DNA from: Deltaproteobacteria bacterium
GTDB lineage: Bacteria > Desulfobacterota > Deferrisomatia > Deferrisomatales > BM512
Assembly (NCBI GenBank): GCA_002869015.1
Contig: PKTT01000016.1
Location: 1-39,443 of the forward strand
Direction: 5' to 3'
Length of the DNA: 39,443 nucleotides
Shown here: positions 10,675 to 39,443 of the stretch, one piece after another
How the letters are laid out: each line of letters begins with the position of its first letter
How positions within the stretch are numbered: position 1 is the stretch's first letter
Made by a program: the position numbers and the translations under genes
The notes under the pieces: model-generated
Seen by the model: only the letters and a program-made list of their open reading frames with translations
The model's database searches: none
What the model was told of the DNA's origin: nothing

Positions 10675-10710
10675 GGAGTTCGCAGGCTGGCTTTAAGCCG
10701 GTGAAAACTG

Positions 10711-10813
10711 CTTATCTAGAGTGGCGGAGGGACCAGGCCCTGTGAAGCCACAGCAACCGGCCGCTATGGCAACTGGTGCTAATTCCTGCGGGAGAGAGCT
10801 CCCGAGAGATGAG
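10711..10813 (+). promoter_or_regulatory. SAM-I (S-box) riboswitch aptamer
   Basis: The conserved SAM-I core is plain: CTTATCT opens helix P1 (10711-10717) and pairs with AGATGAG (10807-10813). Between them are the GGCGGAGGGACCAGGCCC junction, the TGAAGCC and CAGCAACC segments, and the GGTGCTAATTCC block. S-adenosylmethionine binding should repress metX just downstream. No T-run follows any hairpin between the aptamer and the gene. Instead the likely ribosome binding site GGAGAGG (10896-10902) can pair with CCTCTC (10872-10877) or CTCC (10887-10890), so the switch probably acts on translation. Confidence 0.95.
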
Positions 10814-10913
10814 AGTGAAGGCCGGCATACGGAAGGCACCCTCCGGCGGCTAAAAGCCGTCGCAAGTGAATCCTCTCTTTGCCGCCCTCCACTTCGGAGA
10901 GGCGCTAAAACCC
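10814..10913 (+). other. SAM riboswitch expression platform / metX leader
   Basis: This segment holds mutually exclusive helices: GGCGGC (10845-10850) can close a hairpin with GCCGTC (10856-10861) or pair with GCCGCC (10881-10886), while CTCC (10887-10890) can mask GGAG (10896-10899). GCCGG (10821-10825) also matches CCGGC (10843-10847). No protein-coding signal is apparent. The layout fits ribosome-binding-site sequestration. Confidence 0.5.
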
Positions 10914-39002: not shown

Positions 39003-39032
39003 TTGACACACTGTTTTTTTAAAGCGTATCCT
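39003..39032 (+). promoter_or_regulatory. Sigma70-type promoter for the fhs leader transcript
   Basis: A perfect TTGACA (39003-39008), an 18-base spacer containing a T7 run, and TATCCT (39027-39032) make a good promoter. Transcription would start near 39039, leaving a leader of about 320 bases before fhs. Confidence 0.72.
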
Positions 39033-39038
39033 GTCGGG

Positions 39039-39360
39039 GCTTTTCCCCTTGCTTTAGCGGTTTTTTGGGTTTTGGCACCAGAACTTTAAGACCCTTCCAA
39101 AGCTTCGGGATCATTGGATGTTTTTATTCGATTGTTCAAGCGGGCTTTGCTTGGCGGTCAGTTGAAGTTGGCGAAAGATGGAGGAGCAAGGCGTTTCAGT
39201 CGCCGAACTCTGCCTTTTCCCCGCGCGATAAAAAGCGATAAAAATTTGTTTTTGACGCCAAGGGCATCTTCCAACGTTGAAGGTGGCTTGACGCAACTAA
39301 TAGGGTCTTAGGCCCGCAATCCGTAAATGGCTTTAGAGCCTAGTTACAGGGAGGAAAAAT
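39039..39360 (+). promoter_or_regulatory. Long structured 5' leader of fhs, candidate riboregulator
   Basis: This leader of about 320 bases has several strong helices. CTTGGCGGTCA (39150-39160) pairs with TGACGCCAAG (39253-39262), 10 bp with one bulge. GTTGG and AAGATG (39167-39180) pair with CATCTTCCAAC (39265-39275), 11 bp with a 3-base bulge, and would cross the first helix. CATCTTC (39265-39271) can instead pair with GAAGGTG (39279-39285). GGCG/CGCC (39190-39204) competes with AAGGC/GCCTT (39188-39216). GTTTTG/CAGAAC (39069-39084) forms a local hairpin. No ZTP, THF, glycine or SAM riboswitch signature was found. A short reading frame at 39114-39311 gives no family pattern. Function is inferred only from structure and position. 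Confidence 0.45.
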
Positions 39361-39443
39361 ATGGCTAAACTTGAGCCCAAAAACGTCCCCTCCGATCTCG
39401 AGATCGCTCAGAATCACAAGATGGAGCACATCAAAGTCATCGC
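39361..39443 (+). CDS. fhs: Formate-tetrahydrofolate ligase, N-terminal fragment
   Basis: Only the first 27 codons are in the window. The N-terminus contains VPSDLEIAQNHKMEHI, which matches the conserved start of formate-tetrahydrofolate ligase (family pattern PSDIEIAQxxKMxPI). The enzyme uses ATP to join formate to tetrahydrofolate, giving 10-formyl-THF for purines, initiator tRNA or the acetyl-CoA (Wood-Ljungdahl) methyl branch. GGAGG lies before the ATG with good spacing. The gene runs off the right edge, so catalytic motifs cannot be checked. The long structured leader upstream suggests regulated expression. Confidence 0.82.
   Translation, partial: MAKLEPKNVPSDLEIAQNHKMEHIKVI

Follow-up and report, generated by a model that had tools for sequence, protein, structure and literature searches.

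We identified a leader of about 320 nucleotides (nt) upstream of fhs, the gene for formate-tetrahydrofolate ligase, as a candidate for an undescribed, class-wide cis-acting RNA of the fhs-CODH/ACS operon, transcribed from what appears to be a strong promoter. We put the probability of this reading at roughly 0.6. By comparison with relatives, the leader is real, strongly conserved and non-coding in every member of the class that could be searched. Its role is probably translational, namely control of the initiation of fhs translation.

A conserved leader upstream of fhs

The window, meaning the whole stretch of 39,443 nt that was analysed, runs to the end of contig C50 in a genome of 2.53 Mb and 67 contigs (G000). 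The fhs gene begins with an ATG at 39361 (translation MAKLEPKNVPSDLEIAQNHK), and the contig ends 83 nt into it. We compared 12 genomes of the class from four families, G000 and 11 others. All 11 others carry fhs, and their full genes match PF01268. The region from promoter to start codon could be read in 11 genomes (G000 and ten others), and nine independent leaders were available. In G001, a member of the same genus as G000, the region lies on two contigs, one ending at about 39230 and the other beginning at 39345 in window positions. Both genus members thus have contig breaks in or beside the leader or fhs (window 39443; G001 C69/C189); the piece 39231-39344 is missing from G001, and no repeat was seen. 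The main features of the leader in G000 are as follows.

39003-39032, + strand: sigma-70 type promoter, TTGACA-N18-TATCCT, the sole promoter-like site upstream of fhs
39033-39061, + strand: 5' conserved block GGGGCTTTTCCCCTTGCTTTAGCGG, 0/29 changes relative to G001
39062-39129, + strand: variable part of the leader, 15/68 changes and one insertion in G001
39130-39225, + strand: conserved core of the leader, 4/96 changes relative to G001
39361-39443, + strand: start of fhs, cut by the contig end

An earlier note on this DNA had described a good promoter followed by about 320 bases without a convincing gene before fhs, and both observations held up. Exactly one promoter-like site was found in the roughly 530 bp before fhs, on the fhs strand, in 11 of 11 readable class genomes. 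These promoters are all TTGACA-N18-TATNCT and lie 323-431 nt upstream of the fhs ATG. The pattern occurs three times in the 2.5-Mb G000 genome and twice in a reversed control, and this rarity indicates that its class-wide recurrence is not due to chance. The RNA start is predicted from sequence at about 39038-39041. Counted from the -10 hexamer, leaders in the class measure 293-401 nt. No consistent open reading frame with a Shine-Dalgarno (SD) sequence was detected in them, and no open reading frame is kept among them. A coding origin was further rejected as tblastx likenesses between leaders were short and fell on both strands.

We then analyzed the degree of constraint on the leader. Between G000 and G001, the promoter shows 0/30 changes, and the promoter together with the first 29 leader bases 0/59. 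As yardsticks, 37 of 150 positions (25%) changed in the adjacent intergenic DNA before the promoter, and 58 of 102 fourfold sites (57%) in an adjacent outer-membrane-type gene. The binomial P is about 5e-8 for the first 59 bases and 7e-8 for the core. The leader is 366 nt long in a second genus (G007, G010, G011), where it aligns without gaps and differs by 1.1-4.1%; the fourfold sites of fhs in these genomes differ by 9.7-12.8% (Fisher P 2e-7 to 3e-3). The regions upstream of the leader in these three genomes differ by 3.7-6.6%, a weaker yardstick because coding sequence is included. Nine of the 16 variable leader columns fall within alignment columns 49-82. Moreover, G002 and G004 also align to the block at 39033-39061 (74% over 31 nt, E 0.028). 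The low rate of change relative to fourfold and intergenic sites points to strong purifying selection on the leader. Such constraint alone does not tell a functional RNA apart from a protein-bound stretch of DNA. The earlier note had also proposed collecting fhs upstream regions from related genomes, and in this collection the promoter, the 5' block, the core and the 3' hairpin described below are conserved well beyond chance.

The leader is present in single copy. Searches of the class genomes with two different leaders yielded no second locus of significant length and no matches outside fhs leaders. Two other likenesses were rejected. One, between 39174-39228 and the start of a RelE-like gene (G001:C61:25-79; 77%, E 0.01), is probably due to chance, and the G000 orthologue is less alike; the other, in G003:C99, lies inside a coding gene and was judged a chance match. 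Separately, in G036, a genome from another class, fhs is preceded by a TTGACA promoter and about 230 nt of non-coding leader that has no Rfam match.

As the contig end hides the genes downstream of fhs in G000, the operon was read in the relatives G001, G002 and G003. In G001, the genes after fhs encode RACo (PF14574, PF17651, PF17650) and a CooC-like ATPase (PF01656). In G002 and G003, the two relatives with longer sequence, fhs-RACo-cooC is followed by CODH/ACS genes. These comprise AcsB (CODH_A_N), a protein with the AcsC Fe-S domain, a CooS/AcsA-like protein named by sequence inspection only, and a CdhD-like match that lies below the curated cut-off on a 70-residue fragment. This gene order places the leader at the head of a Wood-Ljungdahl operon in these relatives. 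The context is therefore wider than the folate link suggested earlier, with RACo and cooC in three relatives and CODH/ACS in two.

Hairpins within the leader

Two hairpins stand out in the leader, one in the core and one next to the SD sequence of fhs.

39169-39223, + strand: mid hairpin with loop at 39194-39200, 5' arm GGCGAAAG..GGAGGAG and 3' arm CTCTGCCTTTTCCCC, fold -18.5 kcal/mol
39329-39340, + strand: 3' hairpin GGCT-TTAG-AGCC, 7 nt before the SD
39348-39354, + strand: Shine-Dalgarno AGGGAGG of fhs, AGGGAGG in all class leaders

Within the mid hairpin, G001 differs from G000 by three changes, two in the loop and one that converts a terminal U.G to U-A; the fourth change in the core (39161) falls outside the hairpin. 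Comparable helices were found in G004, G006, G007, G008 and G009, and in other families the similar element begins GGCGARRG. The mid helices of G000, G004 and G008 are weaker evidence because the partner arm was picked by eye. G006 and G009, which belong to different families, have the common arms CGGCGAGG and CCTGCTCG. A mid helix of 11 pairs can be drawn for both; two of its pairs differ by double compensatory changes (U-A/A-U and G-C/A-U), and none is broken.

In seven of nine leaders, the SD is preceded at a distance of 5-10 nt by a GGCY-N4-RGCC hairpin, that of G003 having a six-base loop. The GGCY form was not found in the members of genus g2 (G002 and G004). The fourth pair is C-G in G005, G007, G008 and G009 and U-A in G000, G003 and G006. 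A hairpin of any sequence that satisfies these criteria was present in 8/9 leaders, compared with 4-32% in shuffles of the same segments, giving a joint P of 1.4e-6 with the leaders treated as independent.

Tests of the leader as a whole gave mixed results. A structural alignment of the nine leaders had an SCI of 0.449, above all 24 shuffled sets (maximum 0.373); this value may partly reflect shared sequence, because the shuffled null removes it. The alignment was made with our own LocARNA-like progressive program, which over-fits with few sequences. Two leader subgroups taken alone did not exceed shuffles. In genus g6, where changes are few, covariation was not above a substitution-shuffled null (one double change; 43 of 200 nulls had as many). 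Taken together, these tests do not establish a complete consensus fold. Double changes were observed twice in the mid helix (G006/G009) and once in the 3' hairpin. As a separate observation, across the leaders of G010, G007 and G011, three species of one genus, a 10-bp hairpin at alignment columns 272-295 carries a double compensatory change, G-C to A-U, together with a G-C/G-U change.

Helices A and B

The earlier note had proposed two crossing helices, A and B, that form a pseudoknot or exclude each other, underlain by an imperfect direct repeat.

39150-39160, + strand: 5' arm of helix A, exactly complementary to 39253-39262 and kept in G001
39253-39262, + strand: 3' arm of helix A, absent from the G001 contigs
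39265-39285, + strand: 3' arm of helix B (39265-39275, complementary to 39167-39180) and a local hairpin, CATCTTC-CAACGTT-GAAGGTG

The arms pair exactly as described, with energies of -12.5 kcal/mol for A and -9.3 kcal/mol for B. Structure above chance is another matter. We examined 60 dinucleotide shuffles with our own helix scorer, which allows small bulges: 56 contained a crossing pair that matched or exceeded the strength of A and B, and 43 reached the number of such pairs seen in the real sequence. Furthermore, the leader folds no better than shuffles (MFE z -0.64, two segment choices). The direct repeat is present in G000 and altered in G001 by a G to A change at 39161. The pseudoknot or mutually exclusive model is not supported, because it is at chance level in the G000 sequence and the G001 contig breaks at about 39230. 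The strongest evidence for the leader is the comparison with relatives, not helices A and B.

A possible role in translation

Scans of the leaders of four class genomes (G000, G006, G004 and G011) detected no intrinsic terminator. This favours translational control (or Rho) over terminator-based attenuation. Control of fhs translation is further suggested by the conserved hairpins in mid-leader and right beside the SD. In the proposed mechanism, the fhs-CODH/ACS operon would be transcribed from the promoter at 39003-39032, with the leader acting in cis. The true SD (GGGAGGAAAA) would then compete with the SD-like purine arm of the mid hairpin (GGCGAAAG..GGAGG) for one pyrimidine arm, TTTTCCCC, at 39215-39222. 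The response might be to a one-carbon or folate compound, to the energy or redox state, or to a protein. In G000 this pyrimidine arm is complementary to the SD region, and in six of nine leaders a pyrimidine stretch located 34-41 nt past the mid motif pairs with the SD. What recurs is the position of such sites and not their strength: pairing with the SD is in general no better than that found in shuffled leaders, and G000 has a stronger site than the one in its core. The competition between the mid hairpin and the SD is therefore an inference. The fullest form of this model, in which a new riboswitch class or other sensory RNA, responding to a one-carbon, corrinoid or redox signal, would use this competition to set translation of the whole fhs-RACo-cooC-CODH/ACS operon, is offered tentatively and is itself rather unlikely.

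Two other readings accept that the leader is functional and differ in what acts on it. A metabolite-sensing riboswitch of a new class, with a ligand such as THF, 10-formyl-THF, formate, a corrinoid or ZTP, would fit a single-copy leader before a one-carbon and CODH/ACS operon, conserved across several species upstream of a metabolic gene and arranged as a conserved core followed by a conserved hairpin and the SD; moreover, another fhs leader, the Leptotrichia fhsA motif, has been put forward as a weak candidate for a riboswitch (PMC11109978). Against this, only short blocks are common to the class and no invariant multi-branched core was resolved, no matches occur beyond fhs leaders, and no Rfam class was assigned, so that we regard a riboswitch as a minority possibility. 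The earlier note had inferred an undescribed riboswitch or other cis-acting RNA; the second half of that proposal is supported by the class-wide leader, its constraint, its hairpins and the lack of an Rfam family, whereas the riboswitch half is not shown, as no full covarying fold was obtained. Similarly doubtful is the suggestion that the conserved blocks are binding sites for a regulatory protein, in DNA or RNA, within what is otherwise merely a long 5' UTR. Conservation peaks in the promoter and the first 29 leader bases, as it would for an operator, and the conserved blocks are short; however, the core is found 100-190 nt beyond the start, the changes within it are compatible with the hairpin, and the hairpin adjoining the SD is kept.

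The remaining readings would detach the leader from fhs or deny it a function. A strong promoter and a strongly conserved first half could belong to a separate small RNA that lies before fhs by chance, but this is improbable: in the four scanned genomes no terminator separates promoter and fhs, no other promoter-like site lies nearer fhs on its strand, and 6S RNA is located elsewhere in the genome. That the region is a long spacer with accidental helices agrees with the MFE z-score and with the frequency of crossing helices in shuffles; nevertheless, the class-wide promoter position and the constraint refute it for the leader as a whole, and we give it very little credence. We therefore favour a cis-acting RNA of the fhs-CODH/ACS operon as the working interpretation.

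Comparison with known RNA systems

ZTP (pfl) and THF riboswitches control folate and purine genes, and fhs is among the ZTP hosts. The Rfam covariance models of these riboswitches do not match the class leaders, in agreement with the earlier remark that their conserved cores were not found. Rfam searches were run at E up to 10 for the G000 leader and at E up to 3 for ten class relatives; they returned only a handful of isolated matches, far below the gathering scores of the families concerned, and no folate or purine class, ZTP and THF included. The search suggested earlier thus matched no known RNA class. Similarly, none of 14 other fhs loci of the phylum gave a match at gathering thresholds. 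Elsewhere in the window, an ordinary, clear SAM riboswitch (RF00162, 88 bits; 10709-10815, + strand) directly precedes a putative homoserine O-acetyltransferase (MetX) gene at 10866. In other bacteria, 6S RNA is a known RNA gene beside the folate gene ygfA. This candidate (RF00013) was rejected here, since the only 6S match of G000 is on another contig (C30:24448-24630).

The fhsA motif (WRC-63-1) is a weak riboswitch candidate upstream of fhs in Leptotrichia and environmental DNA (Narunsky et al. 2024, PMC11109978). It has a possible pseudoknot and was speculated to sense THF or a one-carbon derivative, and its second hairpin, P2, looks like an intrinsic terminator (PMC11109978). Like the class leader, it is a structured RNA candidate upstream of fhs. 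Compared by text description, the motif has a terminator-like P2, whereas the class leaders of G000, G006, G004 and G011 have no terminator, which argues against their membership in the fhsA motif.

In the acetogens Eubacterium limosum and Acetobacterium woodii, 5' UTR structure is related to the translation of Wood-Ljungdahl genes, and leaders of the carbonyl branch are linked to lower translation efficiency in autotrophic growth (PMC6260860, PMC8407422). The carbonyl-branch 5' UTR of E. limosum is 129 nt (PMC6260860). These studies make translational control of the fhs operon plausible. The acetogen 5' UTRs are individual, without a described conserved motif, whereas the leader reported here, at about 290-400 nt, is conserved throughout a class. 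As a means of carbon fixation, the Wood-Ljungdahl pathway is both ancient and costly, and acetogen work ties 5' UTR structure to its translation without a conserved element. The class-wide leader of the fhs-CODH/ACS operon would offer a concrete, testable RNA for translational control of this pathway.
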